NCBI GenBank assembly: GCA_007833815.1
Contig: CP033464.1
Span: 172,001 to 236,000, forward strand
Direction: 5' to 3'
Length of the DNA stretch: 64,000 nucleotides
Origin: Brevibacillus laterosporus
GTDB taxonomy: Bacteria > Bacillota > Bacilli > Brevibacillales > Brevibacillaceae
The first letter of the stretch is position 1, and the number at the start of each line of letters is the position of its first letter. Below are positions 47,178 through 56,852 of this stretch, piece after piece. The position numbers were made by a program, and so were the translations under genes. The notes beneath the pieces are model-generated. The model was not told where the DNA came from. It did not search any database and saw nothing but the letters and a program-made list of their open reading frames with translations.

Positions 47178-47317
47178 ACTAAAACGCCTCCTTTCCCCTC
47201 ACCATTTATCATAAAAGTCATTTTGACCACTCGTAACCATTACCAAAATTTATAAGCATAAATCATAATCGTATCGGTCATTCTATCATAAGGAGACTAA
47301 TGGCTGGAGGGAGACGT

Positions 47318-48352
47318 ATGCGTTTTCTACGCCTTTATTCATGTTGGATCATAGCTATTATCCTTATGGTTCCATCTCAAGGATTAGCAGCATCTATACC
47401 GACTAAGGCACCAATAACTTCCCCTGCTAAGTCAGAGTGGGATGAACGTATGGAATTATTTATTGAATACGAAGCATTATATGGAATCCCATGGAAGTAT
47501 TTAGCTGCTATTGATCAGTACGAACGAACCATCAAAAAGAAACGAAAAAACAGTGAAGCAGAGTCTGAGAAAAAACGGCTCACCGCAATCAAGGTACCCA
47601 CTGAATTATGGTGTGGCGTTTTTAATCCTGATTCCGAAGATCATAATTTGATTTCGATTACTTTCTTTCATGGGATCGGTTTAGATGGTTCTGGTGATGG
47701 TGTAGCTGATCAAGAAAATGACCGAGACGTATTAACTAGTCTTGTTCGTTTCCTAGGTACCTATGGCTATACCTCCGATGATTTCAAGATTGGTCTATGG
47801 AACTATTATAAGCGCGACTCGGCGGTAAGAACCATCATGCAGTTCTCACGGATCTATGAGAAATACCAAACACTTGAATTGCATGAACATGCTTTTCCTA
47901 TCCCCAAACGTTTCTCTTATAGTTATCGGAGTACGTGGGGAGACCCGCGTGGCTGGGGGGGACGCCGCATTCATGAAGGCGTTGATATTTTTGCCGGATA
48001 CTCTACACCGGTTATGAGTACTGGATATGGAGTCGTTGAGGTATTAGGCTGGAACCGCTATGGTGGTTGGCGTGTAGGTATTCGGGACATCGACAATATT
48101 TATCATTATTTTGCTCACTTGTCCTCCTTTAAGAAGGGTTTAAAAGAGGGTGATATTGTCGTCCCTGGCGAAGTAATCGGCTATGTTGGCAGTTCTGGTT
48201 ATGGTAAGCCTGGTACCTCAGGTAAATTCCCACCCCACCTTCATTATGGAACGTATCGGGACAATGGAAATAATGAATGGGCATTTGATCCCTACCCGCT
48301 ATTAAAGCGTTGGGAAATGCAGAAAAAACAGCCAAAACCTATTTACAAATAA
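47318..48352 (+). CDS. lytH: LytH/YunA L-Ala-D-Glu endopeptidase (M23)
   Basis: The 344-residue protein has a signal peptide (residues 1-25), a middle region (YEALYGIPWKYLAAIDQYER) and a C-terminal M23 domain with HEGVDIFAGYSTPV and PPHLHYGTYR, the zinc ligands. B. subtilis LytH trims stem peptides of the spore cortex. GGAGGG lies six bases before the ATG at 47318. It runs divergently from the LarC-like gene. Confidence 0.88.
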   Translation: MRFLRLYSCWIIAIILMVPSQGLAASIPTKAPITSPAKSEWDERMELFIEYEALYGIPWKYLAAIDQYERTIKKKRKNSEAESEKKRLTAIKVPTELWCGVFNPDSEDHNLISITFFHGIGLDGSGDGVADQENDRDVLTSLVRFLGTYGYTSDDFKIGLWNYYKRDSAVRTIMQFSRIYEKYQTLELHEHAFPIPKRFSYSYRSTWGDPRGWGGRRIHEGVDIFAGYSTPVMSTGYGVVEVLGWNRYGGWRVGIRDIDNIYHYFAHLSSFKKGLKEGDIVVPGEVIGYVGSSGYGKPGTSGKFPPHLHYGTYRDNGNNEWAFDPYPLLKRWEMQKKQPKPIYK

Positions 48353-48416: not shown

Positions 48417-50702
48417 TTATTTTTTCTTCGGTCCACGACCTATTCTAGTCAGACTTTGACCATTTTTGCCTCTAAAATCTGAATCTGTCTTGTCCTTTTG
48501 ATTACTATTTTCTAGACGACGTTTTCTTTTCCACGAGCGTATCAGGAAAAAGAGAACGATAAGAACCGTAATGACAAATACGACAACTGCCATCATTGCC
48601 TGACCTTCGGCGGTATTCACATATTCATACCAGCCCTTTACCTTATTCACCAGTTTGGTTCTGACGGGAATCGGGGCTTCACTTGTGAGAGGTAGTAATA
48701 TCACTTTACCATTCGAGGTTACAATCGCTGCCTCTTCTTTAGATTCCGCCGGGACTTTTGTTTGATCACTCATTGCAGTTGTTGCCGCTAGTAACATTTC
48801 GGGCGTGTTGGCACTTATGACTAAAGCTACCTGACCTTCTTTATGTGCAAAAATCTGCTGAATGCTTGCTCCATTAACTTGCGAAGACTCAAGCACAGGA
48901 ACTACATCACTGGAAAGCCCATTTGGTGTAGTATGAATCTGTAAACCCTGATCCTGCTTCCACTGATTTAGTAGCTTATTTTGCTTATTTACATCCAAGA
49001 TCCATACGTGTTCACTATTTGTTTCTAATGTCTCAGGACCTTGCTTAAGTGTTACTTGTAAGTCATGAACATTCTTCATAGCCCCTGCTGTCAGTTGAGC
49101 TAGTGCTGTTAATTCAACACTGTTTGGTTCTTTTGATAACAAGGCTGTTGCTTTCACCTGATTATCCTGATCAACAAATAAATTGGGGAAATGGGAGAGT
49201 GCCGCTGTTTTCATTTGCTCATGCTTACCTACAAACTGACTTTCTGGCAAAATGCTAACAAAATGCTCCAAACGATTCGTTACTTCGTCACATCCTGTGT
49301 CTCTGATATTTAAATTGGCCTGCACCACTACGTTAATTGGTTCTCCCGTACGCAAAGTTGACGGAAAGGGAATGAATGCCTCTTTTGGCTTACCCGTTGT
49401 TCCCTCTAAAGCGATCGTATTAACCGGCACCCCATTAATCCGTACAGTAATTGAGCTTGTTTTTTTATTTACCTGCTCAGAATGTTGGTAAACAAGACGA
49501 AATCCAGCACCTTTTACATACTGCCAGTCAGGTGGGGTTGCGAATTGATAGCTAGTGGATTCACTAAAGACATTGGACAACGTTACCTGATGATACCCCA
49601 GATCCCGTAAAGTAACAGAATCACTACTAGCTTTCTGCCATGGGGCAAGCTGGGTTTGTGCTAGGTTCTCTGCCTTTCTTACCATGTTATCTGATACAGT
49701 AGCTGTGTATCCATTTATTTGCTTGGTCAATAAAGGATATCGTAATGCTTTTGCAGCTACTTGCACCTGCTGTTCTTTTTCTCCTGATACAAACAAATAG
49801 GTACGTGTGCTACTTTGATCTCCATCATAGAGTGTCATTTGATGGAGCAGTCCTTCTTGCGTTTTGTTTTTTAACAAAGGTGTAAGTTTCTTTTGCCATT
49901 CAGTTGGAAAACTACTAGCCTGGCCCACTGCTATGACATTCCGCTTGGAGGGCGCCTTTTTCCAATCATTATACCTAAGTACGCGAGCAGCCTGGCTTTC
50001 CTGAGGCACATAACTAGCAAGCGTAGCTACCACCTGATAAGCCGCTTCTAATTCCGCATCCGTTGCCTTATTTGGGACAACTATCTCCGTATTCCATGAC
50101 GGACTAGCGTCGTCTCCAATGAATGACTGCGGGAAGCTCTGAATGGTTGACTTTGGATATAAAGGTTCATAGGCTACATGAATGTAACTCTTTTTATCTA
50201 ACACCAGCCAGTTAGCTGGGTTTAGTCGATCCGCACAAAAATAAGGGCTTGATTGCAAATACGTTCCCACCGAGAATTGATGGAATCCCGGCGTCAAATC
50301 CTTAGCAGGAATAACTACCTTTAGGCTTCCCTGACCATTCCTTCCTTTGATCAGACGAGTCGTCCCATACGGTTTTCCATCCATGAAAAGACTTACATTA
50401 GACTCTGATATTAATGTGGGAGAATAGCGGAAATACACCTGAAATTCTGCCTGTTTAATCTCCCATTGGTCCGAGATTTTCAGGTAGTAATCATACTGGC
50501 TGTGCGTGGGATTTAAGCTCTGATCTTCCTTGGTGATAAATGTATTGCTAACATTCGCCATTGCATCTGCTTGAGTTGGAATGAAGCTCAAAACACTCAA
50601 GCTAAACAGACAAGTAATCAGAAGACATGTGACCCAACCAGGGAAAGAGAATACCTGACTGCCCGTGACGACCTGTTTCTCTTCTTTCTTCATGCACGTC
50701 AT
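48417..50702 (-). CDS. ydaN: YdaN, BcsB-like exopolysaccharide synthesis protein
   Basis: The 761-residue protein has a membrane segment near residue 20-45, a long extracytoplasmic region with two BcsB-type carbohydrate-binding and flavodoxin-like repeats, and a C-terminal membrane helix (MAVVVFVITVLIVLFFLI) with a basic tail. QSSPYFCADRLNPANWLVL and RDTGCDEVTNRLEHFV are typical. It would act with YdaM as the outer partner of the synthase. It ends the five-gene ydaJKLMN block and is 12 bp from ydaM. Confidence 0.85.
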   Translation of the reverse strand: MTCMKKEEKQVVTGSQVFSFPGWVTCLLITCLFSLSVLSFIPTQADAMANVSNTFITKEDQSLNPTHSQYDYYLKISDQWEIKQAEFQVYFRYSPTLISESNVSLFMDGKPYGTTRLIKGRNGQGSLKVVIPAKDLTPGFHQFSVGTYLQSSPYFCADRLNPANWLVLDKKSYIHVAYEPLYPKSTIQSFPQSFIGDDASPSWNTEIVVPNKATDAELEAAYQVVATLASYVPQESQAARVLRYNDWKKAPSKRNVIAVGQASSFPTEWQKKLTPLLKNKTQEGLLHQMTLYDGDQSSTRTYLFVSGEKEQQVQVAAKALRYPLLTKQINGYTATVSDNMVRKAENLAQTQLAPWQKASSDSVTLRDLGYHQVTLSNVFSESTSYQFATPPDWQYVKGAGFRLVYQHSEQVNKKTSSITVRINGVPVNTIALEGTTGKPKEAFIPFPSTLRTGEPINVVVQANLNIRDTGCDEVTNRLEHFVSILPESQFVGKHEQMKTAALSHFPNLFVDQDNQVKATALLSKEPNSVELTALAQLTAGAMKNVHDLQVTLKQGPETLETNSEHVWILDVNKQNKLLNQWKQDQGLQIHTTPNGLSSDVVPVLESSQVNGASIQQIFAHKEGQVALVISANTPEMLLAATTAMSDQTKVPAESKEEAAIVTSNGKVILLPLTSEAPIPVRTKLVNKVKGWYEYVNTAEGQAMMAVVVFVITVLIVLFFLIRSWKRKRRLENSNQKDKTDSDFRGKNGQSLTRIGRGPKKK

Positions 50703-50714
50703 CCCCTTTCCTTT

Positions 50715-51956
50715 TTAAAAGCGGTCGGTCTTGTACCAGACGACTTTTTCCTGTAACAGTACGCTTTTTAGCTGAATCAACATCCCGCGAATTACTAGGA
50801 AAATCCATAATTGTGAATACGTGAAGTACATCAGCATGACAATGAATAAATTCGACCAGGTTAATTGGGTTTTCTCAATCTCTAAGGTAACCATGATCTC
50901 AACAATAAACAATAAGTAGGCTAGTACCCAGATGATAAAATAAGGACCTTCCACCGTTAAATCCACCACACCAACTAGAGACAGTACAAAAATAACGTCA
51001 GAAATGAGTACACCACATAAAAAAACAAAGTACGTAAAGAAGAAATAAAAAATATCAAACATAATCCGTTTATTTTTTAAAGAGAAAATCATTCGAATAA
51101 ACTTCATGACTACGTAGCTATTACCTCTAACCCAACGTGTTCGTTGTTTTAACCAAACATTCCAAGTCTCTGGTTCCTGCTCCCACGTAACCGCGACAGG
51201 CATGAAACAGATTTTCTTTCCAGCTTCATAAATACGGATGCTAAGTTCAGTATCCTCTGCTAGTGCCTTCTCATCCCAGCTTCCAGCTTCCTCTAACACA
51301 TCCCGCCAAATTACAAAGTTGGTCCCTGGAATGCTGGCGATGCCAAACAGACTCCAGCGCCCTCCCTGTACCATCCACTGAAAGTTAATCGTTTCAATAT
51401 TGATAAACCTTGTAAGTAAGGTGTTTTTTGCATTAATGACCCGAAACTTACCCACAACCACCCCATAATCAGGATTGCTAACCAAGGTAGCTACCAACCT
51501 TCGCAAAGCCGTTCGTTCCGGTGTATTATCTGCATCATAAACAGCCAAAACCTCGCCTCTAGCGTGTCGCAAGCCATTATTTAATGCAGCCGATTTCCCT
51601 GTCCCTCCTTCTGGCGGATGAATGTGCAATGGTCGTAGCATCGGATATTGTTTCGCCAGACGATCCAAAATGTCGCCTGTGCGATCCGTAGAGCAGTCAT
51701 TTATAACGATAACTTCAAAAGAATCTTCCGGATAATCAAAAGAGCACAGCGCTTTTACCGTTCGCTCAATCACCATTTCTTCATTATGGGCAGGAACCAG
51801 AACGCTCACAAAAGGGGGCTGTTCAGGAAATCGCAGAGTTTTGCCGATCTCATATAGCTTTTTTTCATAACGATAACCTGACATCGCTAAGATAACGTGG
51901 TACAAAAGCATGACCCAAATCATTAGCAATGAAAAGATAAAAATATGATCAGTCAT
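50715..51956 (-). CDS. ydaM: YdaM, family 2 glycosyltransferase (BcsA-like)
   Basis: The 413-residue integral membrane synthase has an N-terminal helix, a GT2 domain and three to four C-terminal helices. The GT2 domain carries VINDCSTDRT, the DAD motif (D141, D143), the ED of LAEDTEL (E234, D235) and QRTRW (271-275). No PilZ domain is present, so c-di-GMP must be sensed by another protein, probably YdaK. GGGAGGG precedes the ATG. The start overlaps the ydaL stop in the shifted frame (TAATG). Confidence 0.9.
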   Translation of the reverse strand: MTDHIFIFSLLMIWVMLLYHVILAMSGYRYEKKLYEIGKTLRFPEQPPFVSVLVPAHNEEMVIERTVKALCSFDYPEDSFEVIVINDCSTDRTGDILDRLAKQYPMLRPLHIHPPEGGTGKSAALNNGLRHARGEVLAVYDADNTPERTALRRLVATLVSNPDYGVVVGKFRVINAKNTLLTRFINIETINFQWMVQGGRWSLFGIASIPGTNFVIWRDVLEEAGSWDEKALAEDTELSIRIYEAGKKICFMPVAVTWEQEPETWNVWLKQRTRWVRGNSYVVMKFIRMIFSLKNKRIMFDIFYFFFTYFVFLCGVLISDVIFVLSLVGVVDLTVEGPYFIIWVLAYLLFIVEIMVTLEIEKTQLTWSNLFIVMLMYFTYSQLWIFLVIRGMLIQLKSVLLQEKVVWYKTDRF

Positions 51957-52155
51957 TACCCTGACCCTCCCACTTCCTTACTACTTTCTTCAAACATACG
52001 CTGTGCTCTCTTTTTGCGAAGGATACTCACCTCTAGAAGGAAATACAGTACAACGCTACTCACCACAATGACAAGACCCCAGGATATATAAAAGCTAGCC
52101 TTCTGTACCCTGGTTTGTTCATCGACCTTTATTTGTTGCTGAGGCTGTATCGGGG
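51956..52155 (-). pseudogene. ydaL: frameshifted C-terminal end of ydaL
   Basis: After the G3C5 run at 52159-52152, the next reading frame encodes a Gln-rich linker, the membrane helix FYISWGLVIVVSSVVLYFLL and a basic end (RKKRAQRMFEE). It closes with TAA at 51958-51956 inside the TAATG that starts ydaM. This is exactly the anchor and coupling expected of YdaL. One additional C would restore it to the main frame. Confidence 0.75.
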
Positions 52156-53517
52156 GCCCTCTCCTTCTGGTAAGAAATAGAACAGAACTCGCATGTTTTT
52201 CAATCTAAGAATCAAATCTTTTAATTCAGCATCAGGTAAGTTGCTTGGCACTGGTAAAATCATTTGGGTATGTCGCATGATCATGGATGTCTGAACTTGT
52301 TGCAAAGCGGATGATACATACTGTCCAGGGTCCATATTAGAAATTGGCACTTTGGAGTAAAAGGCCAGTTGATTTGGTTCTTGTTCCCATAGCGGTCTTG
52401 ATAAGGCAACCTTAGGCCACTCTGCCCCCAAATCGGGTAAGCCGATCGCTTGTTGAAATAAAGGAGCTGCCTCCATCGCTTGGTTCATCGATACACCTTG
52501 TTCTGGTAATTCGACAGCAACAGGCGAGATTCCAAGCTCATATAAAATCTCTTTTTTGTTGAGCAAATCTGTTGGGCTATCTGGTTGTAGAGTAACCTTG
52601 TGTCCTTTTACAACAACCTGCCCTCCTAAATCTTGTTGGATCAGCAATAATGCTTTAGCCAAATCAGGATAATGGCGTAAATCAGTCTGATTCCCACGTT
52701 CGATCGGATCTAGCGAAATACTAAAGGGAATGCCCAAATCCTTTAGTAAACGTGCCTTAGTCAGTAGCTTGTTAGGATCAGATGTAAGAGTTATCCCGTC
52801 CAAATAAACATGAAGAGAGTGTCGGGTTACTACTTTTTGCTGATAAAAATCATACAATGAATCGAGAAAGGCATAGCTTAGCTCTCCTGTTCCAACAAAT
52901 TGAGCACTATAATAGAAAGGTCTGCCCTCCACTCCCAGATGATCTGCAAGTAAATAAGGTGCTTTCTGTACGCCATTTTCTATAAATGCTGTGATTGCAC
53001 TCTGTTTTTCATAAGGTACAGATAACATAGGAATATCCATTAACTGATCGAGTGGGTATCTATTTCCCTTTATCGTAAACAGATGCGCCTCATCAATCAT
53101 ACCTGTGATTTTATAGGGAGTATGTAATGCTAAACTGGCTGGATTTCCCCCAACTACATAAACAGGAACATGACTTTTTTTCATTACTTGTTGCCATTCT
53201 TTAGTGAGCGCACCGTTTGACTGAGCACCATTCCCTACATACACAAGGCAATCAAAGCTAGACTGTGGCGGTATCTGTTGGTCGATATTAATCGGCATTA
53301 CCTTCTCTTGAAATAGGGAAAGCATTAGCAAAAGTTCATTTTTTGTCGTTGTATATTCATCTGACTGATGATACAACAACCAAGTAATCCCTGTTTGTTT
53401 GTTTCCTTGATTTTTCTGTGCATTAGCAAAATCAGCATGAGTAGATAAAGCTAACATCCCTATCAATAAGAAAAACATAGCCTTTTTTATATTCTCTTGC
53501 CCTTTACCCCAGATCAT
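52129..53517 (-). CDS. ydaL: YdaL, exported protein of the EPS operon (frameshifted)
   Basis: As read, the protein has 462 residues with a signal segment (MFFLLIGMLALSTHADFANA) and a DUF2334-like outer domain. It ends in SLSNK because of a one-base loss in the C5 run near 52156-52152. The correct product should be about 520 residues with a C-terminal membrane helix (51956-52155). GGGAG lies seven bases before the ATG at 53517. Its function in EPS synthesis is not known. Confidence 0.8.
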   Translation of the reverse strand: MIWGKGQENIKKAMFFLLIGMLALSTHADFANAQKNQGNKQTGITWLLYHQSDEYTTTKNELLLMLSLFQEKVMPINIDQQIPPQSSFDCLVYVGNGAQSNGALTKEWQQVMKKSHVPVYVVGGNPASLALHTPYKITGMIDEAHLFTIKGNRYPLDQLMDIPMLSVPYEKQSAITAFIENGVQKAPYLLADHLGVEGRPFYYSAQFVGTGELSYAFLDSLYDFYQQKVVTRHSLHVYLDGITLTSDPNKLLTKARLLKDLGIPFSISLDPIERGNQTDLRHYPDLAKALLLIQQDLGGQVVVKGHKVTLQPDSPTDLLNKKEILYELGISPVAVELPEQGVSMNQAMEAAPLFQQAIGLPDLGAEWPKVALSRPLWEQEPNQLAFYSKVPISNMDPGQYVSSALQQVQTSMIMRHTQMILPVPSNLPDAELKDLILRLKNMRVLFYFLPEGEGPRYSLSNK

Positions 53518-54439
53518 AAAGAAGCTCCCGTTTGGCCACGTCATATAGCTCTTGTGGACTCTCTCCCTGATGAGGAGTTGAAGCTAAACCAAACTTTAAT
53601 GTAAATGTCACTTCTTTCATCTGGTTGGCATTCACTTGCATCTGAAACGTATCAATTGTCTCCCGCAAACGGTTTTGAACAACCATGGCATTGGACGGAT
53701 GAGTCTCAGGCAAAATTAAAGCAAAGCGAGCATCACCAACTCTTGCCTTCTTATCGCTTAATCGTAATGAGCTATGTAAGCCTTCCGTGAAGGCAAGTAA
53801 TAATCTCCTGCCCCATTCCTGACCATATAGAATTTGGAATTGATCGTAATGCACGATTTCAATTAACATGATTGTCACTTGCTCATCCTGTGGAGTTGTC
53901 TCTGGGTCTTGTTCCTTCCAAGTGCCCACAACCAAACCGGCTCGTTGTCGCCGAATAAAATGACGGTATTCTCGTTGAATCTCTTCCTCCAGATCAAAGA
54001 AAAAGCGTTTTTCCGTCGCTAATCCCGTAATGGGGTCTACCATCATCAGTTCATCAACAGATCGGTACATATGTCGATACTCCGCATACATGCTGCGAAC
54101 CTTTTCTCCTAAAACGCCTCCCGTGTAAGCCGCTAATGGAAATAACACAAACCAAGATAATTCCAATAAAGTAAATCTAGCGTTCTCCATAAATACAAAA
54201 AAACGGACTAGATGGAGTGTTCCAAATGTAAAAATCACACCTAGACTAAGCAATAGACCCAGCACTCGATTTTTCGTATAGCTAATCACCAGCAAGAGGA
54301 CCGTGCATCCGAACCAGACATAAGTGTATGAATCATCGTCTTGCATGGTGACAAATTGAGCAACAAATAGCACGAGCAAAGCTAGTATCAAATAAGGCTC
54401 CAGCATGAAAAAACTCATGTATTTTTGACTTCTTTTCAT
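53504..54439 (-). CDS. ydaK: YdaK, membrane GGDEF c-di-GMP receptor
   Basis: The 311-residue protein has four or five membrane helices (up to about residue 110), a short coiled linker and a GGDEF domain. The active-site motif is degenerate, GDARF (235-239), but the I-site R226-L-S-D229 is intact at the usual five-residue spacing. It should therefore bind c-di-GMP without making it, as known for B. subtilis YdaK. It overlaps ydaJ (ATG within TGA context) and ydaL by 14 nt. Confidence 0.88.
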   Translation of the reverse strand: MKRSQKYMSFFMLEPYLILALLVLFVAQFVTMQDDDSYTYVWFGCTVLLLVISYTKNRVLGLLLSLGVIFTFGTLHLVRFFVFMENARFTLLELSWFVLFPLAAYTGGVLGEKVRSMYAEYRHMYRSVDELMMVDPITGLATEKRFFFDLEEEIQREYRHFIRRQRAGLVVGTWKEQDPETTPQDEQVTIMLIEIVHYDQFQILYGQEWGRRLLLAFTEGLHSSLRLSDKKARVGDARFALILPETHPSNAMVVQNRLRETIDTFQMQVNANQMKEVTFTLKFGLASTPHQGESPQELYDVAKRELLYDLG

Positions 54440-55635
54440 TCGCTCTTCCCTCCTCCTATCCTCATAGCTAGTAAACTTTCTAGTTGATCAAAGGAAAAGG
54501 CCTGCAGCCTGTACACATCCAGATATCCTCCCTCAAATTGCACCGCTTTTTGTCTGATATCGGCTGGAGCATCTTGATAGGATTGGCTGGATACTTGTAG
54601 TTCCTCTAACCGAGTAAGACACTGCCTAGCTAAGCTAATTTGATCACTTTCTATGAACAACATGGCAGCTAAAGCATAAACAGCAGGCGATTCCATATCG
54701 GTCTTCATTTTTCCACTCTGTTTATCAGCCGTAGCAAATAACTTCCCTGTTTTCTGTAGGCTATCTGCTAAACGCTTGCGCATTGAGTCAGTTGGAATAC
54801 CTGCCTGTTCAGCATACAGAGCTGTAATAATCTGTTCACTCATATTGGTTGAGACAGCAGTTGTCAGTAATGCCGGATCTTGAACATACCTACTCTCTTT
54901 AGGCAGGTACGCAAGTGCATACAGTCCATTCGGTTGTTCAGCTTGCTCTAAAATTCTTTTCATCTGTTCGTATATGGGTAAATATTCTGGAATTTTTTCT
55001 GCTAGCTTTTGTAGGGCAGATAAATTGGCATACCGAACTTGTACAGTTGGAGCCACTTGCCGTTTTTTCTCATCAGCATAATCAAACAGCCATTTTCCAT
55101 CGGTATTAGTAGCAAGAAGTCCTTTTGCGAGGCGTAATCCTAAGTTAAAGGCTTGCTCATTGTTAAATATCCGCGCTCCATCCCATAAAGCTTCAATGAT
55201 TCGTAAATCATCCACGCTACTATTCACCGTATGATGACTTGTACTTGGGTAAATCCATGCGATGAAATCTCCTTCCACGAATCGATGTTGCAATAAGTTC
55301 AACTGCTGTATAAATAATTCTTCATTGTGGGAACTAACAGCATATTTTAGCAATAACCCCACTGATTCCGAGAGAACAGCATGACCCTTCGTTTTATCTG
55401 AGTTATCTAGATAATTGGTATAAATGCCACCTTCTGGATTAACCATATGCGTCCTGATGAAATGAAATAATTTCTGTTCTGCTTCGCTACCGTAAGTTGG
55501 GGGCTCAGCAAGTGTGATCGGTGTAATACTCTCATCCTTTTGATTGATTCGTCCTACACAAAAGGCAACGATAAGAACCAAAACCACTAAAGTAATTACC
55601 ACAATTGCCCTTTTGCTTAACACCTTTATTCCCAT
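54436..55635 (-). CDS. ydaJ: YdaJ, GH8-like hydrolase of the EPS operon
   Basis: The 399-residue protein has an N-terminal membrane anchor (about 8-28) and an alpha-barrel like glycoside hydrolase family 8. Family features are AVLSESVGLLLKYAV, with E90 in the place of the general acid, and NSSVDDLRIIEALWD with D142 or D143. It is probably outside the membrane and trims the polymer, as BcsZ does in cellulose operons. It is the first gene of the operon. Its ATG has only a weak ribosome site. Confidence 0.82.
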   Translation of the reverse strand: MGIKVLSKRAIVVITLVVLVLIVAFCVGRINQKDESITPITLAEPPTYGSEAEQKLFHFIRTHMVNPEGGIYTNYLDNSDKTKGHAVLSESVGLLLKYAVSSHNEELFIQQLNLLQHRFVEGDFIAWIYPSTSHHTVNSSVDDLRIIEALWDGARIFNNEQAFNLGLRLAKGLLATNTDGKWLFDYADEKKRQVAPTVQVRYANLSALQKLAEKIPEYLPIYEQMKRILEQAEQPNGLYALAYLPKESRYVQDPALLTTAVSTNMSEQIITALYAEQAGIPTDSMRKRLADSLQKTGKLFATADKQSGKMKTDMESPAVYALAAMLFIESDQISLARQCLTRLEELQVSSQSYQDAPADIRQKAVQFEGGYLDVYRLQAFSFDQLESLLAMRIGGGKSE

Positions 55636-55916: not shown

Positions 55917-56852
55917 TTGAAAATCTATTTAATCGAAAATGGAACCATGACATCTACCGAAGACATAGAACAGACAATACATCCACCTGCTAATGGATTC
56001 TATTGGATACAAGCTCGTTTATTTGATCTGGATATCTTGCAATCCTTGTTTCATTTACATCCATTAGCTATTGAGGATTGCATTGATGAAGAGGAACAAC
56101 GTCCCAAACTCGAAGTTTATCAGGACCATTACTTTATGGTTAGCAATAGCATTCAGTTTCATAATGAGGATATTTTTCTGCGGGAAGTGAATATCTTTCT
56201 TGGAAAGCATTATATCATTACGGTCAGTAAATTTGAAATAGATGAGATACGCATTTTTCCCTCCATTATTCGTGAGGAAGAAATTCATTCACCCGATTCC
56301 TTCTTGTATTATTTCATGGATCAGCTCATAGAAAGCTACTTTGATGTGATGGAAGAAATTCAAGATCTTATTGAAAATTTGGAGGAACAAGTTTTACTCA
56401 AGGCGAAAAACTCTCATCTTTCCCAAATTGTTGGTTTACGCCGAGAAATTCTCTATGCAAAAAAGATAATGGCACCACAACGCGATCTAATTTATGCCCT
56501 TCAAACAATGGATTTAGCACTTATCTCTCCAAACTTACGCAAATATTTCATTGATATTCATGAGAATGCCGTGAAGATTGTGGAGAATTTTGAAACATTT
56601 CGAGAGTTAATTGGTAACGTTCGTGAAGCCTATCAATCATCTGTTTCTAATCGAACCAATGAGATCATGCGCATTTTTACAGCGTTGACCACTATTTTCA
56701 TGCCCTTAACAGTTGTGACAGGTATTTATGGAATGAACTTCGATTTAATGCCAGAACTACATACCCGCTATGGTTATTTTCTCGTCTTGTTTATCATGGT
56801 CACACTAGCTACTACAATGTATGCTATTTTTAAAAGAAATGATTGGTTATGA
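55917..56852 (+). CDS. corA: CorA-family magnesium/divalent cation transporter
   Basis: The 311-residue protein has a large N-terminal cytosolic domain and two C-terminal membrane helices, with the conserved YGMNF motif before the second. TIFMPLTVVTGIYGMNFDL and MYAIFKRNDWL are typical CorA endings. It takes up Mg2+ or related ions. The start is a TTG at 55917 after GGAGGG; it is divergent from the yda operon. Confidence 0.9.
   Translation: MKIYLIENGTMTSTEDIEQTIHPPANGFYWIQARLFDLDILQSLFHLHPLAIEDCIDEEEQRPKLEVYQDHYFMVSNSIQFHNEDIFLREVNIFLGKHYIITVSKFEIDEIRIFPSIIREEEIHSPDSFLYYFMDQLIESYFDVMEEIQDLIENLEEQVLLKAKNSHLSQIVGLRREILYAKKIMAPQRDLIYALQTMDLALISPNLRKYFIDIHENAVKIVENFETFRELIGNVREAYQSSVSNRTNEIMRIFTALTTIFMPLTVVTGIYGMNFDLMPELHTRYGYFLVLFIMVTLATTMYAIFKRNDWL

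Follow-up and report, generated by a model that had tools for sequence, protein, structure and literature searches.

A 64,000-nucleotide stretch of the Brevibacillus laterosporus genome (contig CP033464.1, positions 172,001 to 236,000; hereafter the window) carries a ydaJKLMN-type exopolysaccharide operon in which ydaL is broken between two frames. According to the open reading frame (ORF) list of the window, ydaL is located between the YdaK and YdaM genes on the same strand. The positions of these genes, of the two ydaL frames and of the flanking genes are collected in Table 1.

Table 1. Features of the ydaL locus and its flanks, in window coordinates
Feature	Position	Strand	Remarks
ydaL, main frame	52129..53544	-	471 amino acids; TAA at 52131-52129 after the globular part
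ydaL, alternate frame	51956..52204	-	Open from 52204 onward; encodes the hydrophobic C-terminal helix and the basic tail; stop at 51958-51956 overlaps the ydaM start
Both ydaL frames open	52131..52204	-	Location of the frame break; holds G3C5 (52159-52152) and A5 (52200-52196)
ydaM, GT2 glycosyltransferase	50715..51956	-	Unbroken
ydaN, BcsB-like	48417..50702	-	Unbroken
ydaK, GGDEF-domain protein	53504..54439	-	Unbroken; degenerate active-site motif GDARF
Further listed part of the locus	54436..55635	-	
Flank, peptidase-like gene	47300..48352	+	Presumably M23; matched at the DNA level in all 5 congeners
Flank, CorA-like gene	55917..56852	+	Presumably CorA-like; matched at the DNA level in 4 of the 5 congeners

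The frame break proposed in the initial annotation is confirmed in the deposited sequence, in which both frames are open over the same short interval. The main frame begins with a hydrophobic stretch, seen in the translation, and the body that it encodes matches the intact YdaL in the equivalent operon of a congener (29% identity, expectation value E 4.5e-43). Searched apart, the out-of-frame tail matches the tail of that congener YdaL (E 6e-18) and gives a further match with E 7.7e-13. A second YdaL was not found in this genome. The undecayed state of the tail means that the break is either recent or not real; it says no more than that.

The predicted loss of the membrane anchor was supported as well. 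An in-frame C-terminal membrane helix is absent from YdaL, the best 19-residue mean hydropathy in its last 90 residues being 0.65, whereas values of at least 1.60 were found in all 79 of the genes upstream of ydaM in other loci that could be read, the set to which every homologue count given here refers. These genes carry the C-terminal helix that the initial annotation had expected of YdaL homologues. Homologues ending without a helix, which it had named as contrary evidence, were looked for, and none was present among the 79; nor is any of them broken at the ydaL junction.

In the body of YdaL, DUF2334 (PF10096) scored 14.5 bits, below the cut-off of 26. A recognisable DUF2334 domain is gone from the YdaL of this sub-lineage (window 52132-53544 and L003:1489-3120). 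The HGYTH-type motif is missing both here and in the distant relatives L115, L119, L121, L122 and L123, yet a hydrophobic C-terminus is kept in all five of these relatives. This pattern suggests that the C-terminal anchor of YdaL may be retained even after the loss of enzyme-like motifs, and makes the anchor a part deserving a test.

The break in ydaL is read here, with somewhat more confidence than doubt, as a recent and real frame-breaking mutation, belonging to an early stage of the operon's erosion under relaxed selection. The YdaL product would then keep its N-terminal hydrophobic stretch and its whole body, but linker, membrane helix and basic tail would be missing. A YdaL lacking these three parts would probably be released and no longer retained next to YdaM and YdaN. 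Translation would also end about 170 nucleotides short of ydaM, and a drop in exopolysaccharide output may be expected.

Five genomes of the genus were compared. Only operon remnants are present at the locus in three of them, and nothing of the operon was detected in a fourth, which favours a real loss; the operon is whole in the remaining one. The remnants, which differ among G003, G004 and G005, are pieces of ydaJ, ydaM or ydaN located between or beside flanking genes common with this strain (L155:6913-8746, L156:8019-8281 and L201:3418-4893). Large deletions have occurred in these three congeners, in contrast to the single frame break here, and the lesion in ydaL would represent an early step of an erosion that has already largely deleted the operon in other species. 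This distribution among the five congeners is new, and it indicates that an exopolysaccharide operon linked to cyclic diguanosine monophosphate (c-di-GMP) has been eroded repeatedly in the genus.

Several observations weigh against this reading. In G002 no trace of the operon was detected at the locus, and this is absence, which is not loss observed. Further lesions were not found in the strain's own copy: within the window, the reading frames of ydaJ, ydaK, ydaM and ydaN are all intact. The ratio of nonsynonymous to synonymous substitution rates (dN/dS) is 0.18 for ydaN against the G004 fragment, only a little higher than the 0.08-0.14 obtained with four flanking genes. The four unbroken genes and the ydaN ratio both argue against decay of long standing in this strain; apart from ydaL, the operon does not appear to be decaying. 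The undecayed tail, moreover, would suit an artefact equally well, and an error at ydaL is possible because the assembly, with a fairly clean interior, holds clustered breaks at the contig start and one clear break further inside.

Such a consensus error, by which the strain's gene would be whole and its operon working, is a substantial possibility, short of an even chance. The assembly was checked by comparing 376 kb of the strain's own sequence with 400 kb of G003. From the 311 G003 ORFs with 120 or more amino acids, 228 (78,410 amino acids) had a near-full counterpart, and 11 of these were flagged because the match was divided between frames: three in the first 7 kb, three tandem-copy artefacts, four with a shift near the N-terminus or in a weakly conserved ORF, and one clear interior case. 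In the reverse comparison 5 of 230 were flagged, four of them at N-terminal ends. Since ydaL has no counterpart in G003, it is not part of these counts. The three genes with apparent breaks at the contig start (C4:1-7000, L157) include one with four breaks, penicillin-binding-protein-like by the Pfam matches of its G003 counterpart; clustered breaks are what an unpolished contig end would be expected to show, and this region is probably one. The clear interior break, in a TetR-type gene near C4:110425 (L162), and the short G/C run at the ydaL site also favour an error. Few breaks were found away from the contig start, however, ydaL is located about 224 kb inside the contig, and relatives keep only pieces of its operon. 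The choice between real loss and sequencing error that the initial annotation had offered is narrowed: the remnants in congeners favour a real loss, and we infer a biological origin of the break, with the breaks elsewhere in the assembly leaving room for an error. The TetR-type regulator itself is split over two frames relative to G003, in which the counterpart matches TetR_C_4, YsiA-like.

Two other mechanisms would make the break functional, and both appear very improbable. Programmed -1 frameshifting would yield released and anchored YdaL from one message, an inefficient recoding by which the break is used in this lineage. By eye, a heptamer of the form X XXY YYZ (G GGC CCC) was found near the junction, in the correct register to enter the tail frame and closely preceded by AAGGAG; the tail is conserved. 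A Shine-Dalgarno-like stimulator of -1 frameshifting is expected 10-14 nucleotides upstream of the slippery site, but here the sequence ends one base before the heptamer, which is too close. Folding of 82 nucleotides downstream revealed no unusual RNA structure (z -0.96; 34 of 200 shuffled sequences were equally or more stable). By rough estimate, about 1 in 10 stretches of equal length would hold such a heptamer, and a break at this site is absent from all of the readable upstream genes. That last count stands equally against phase variation, in which slipped-strand mispairing in the C run would toggle the anchor, as the initial annotation had suggested. The break is indeed near a homopolymer, but the tract is short and nothing special, because the window holds 36 G or C homopolymers exactly five bases long; such switching is scarcely to be expected here.

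If the mutation is real, an exopolysaccharide operon has been caught at the start of a loss largely completed in sister species, and the genus provides a small natural series for exploring why some spore formers can do without this c-di-GMP output. If the break is a sequencing slip, only a caution for annotation follows. The single lesion is ordinary in kind; the point of value is the repeated erosion of the operon across the genus.

The congener with the equivalent operon is among the closest systems for comparison. Its proteins are 82% (YdaM), 62% (YdaK) and 59% (YdaL tail) identical to those of this strain, and its ydaL stop and ydaM start codons are merged in TAATG, as in the tail frame here; its YdaL, however, is unbroken, with 544 amino acids. 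The same genome has a second yda-type operon, of which the YdaL has DUF2334. In Bacillus spizizenii (L100), a close relative of Bacillus subtilis, the gene preceding ydaM also encodes a hydrophobic tail and terminates where ydaM starts; B. subtilis itself was outside the set of compared loci. Published accounts describe B. subtilis ydaJKLMN as a c-di-GMP-controlled exopolysaccharide operon (PMC5422440, PMC13274460). The operon here resembles that description in the gene order J-K-L-M-N, the glycosyltransferase and the degenerate GGDEF protein, in which an RLSD motif was located by eye five residues upstream of GDARF, a spacing set against the corresponding part of PMC5422440. It differs from the B. 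subtilis operon in its YdaL, with a body diverged below the DUF2334 cut-off, without the HGYTH-type motif, and with the anchor out of frame.
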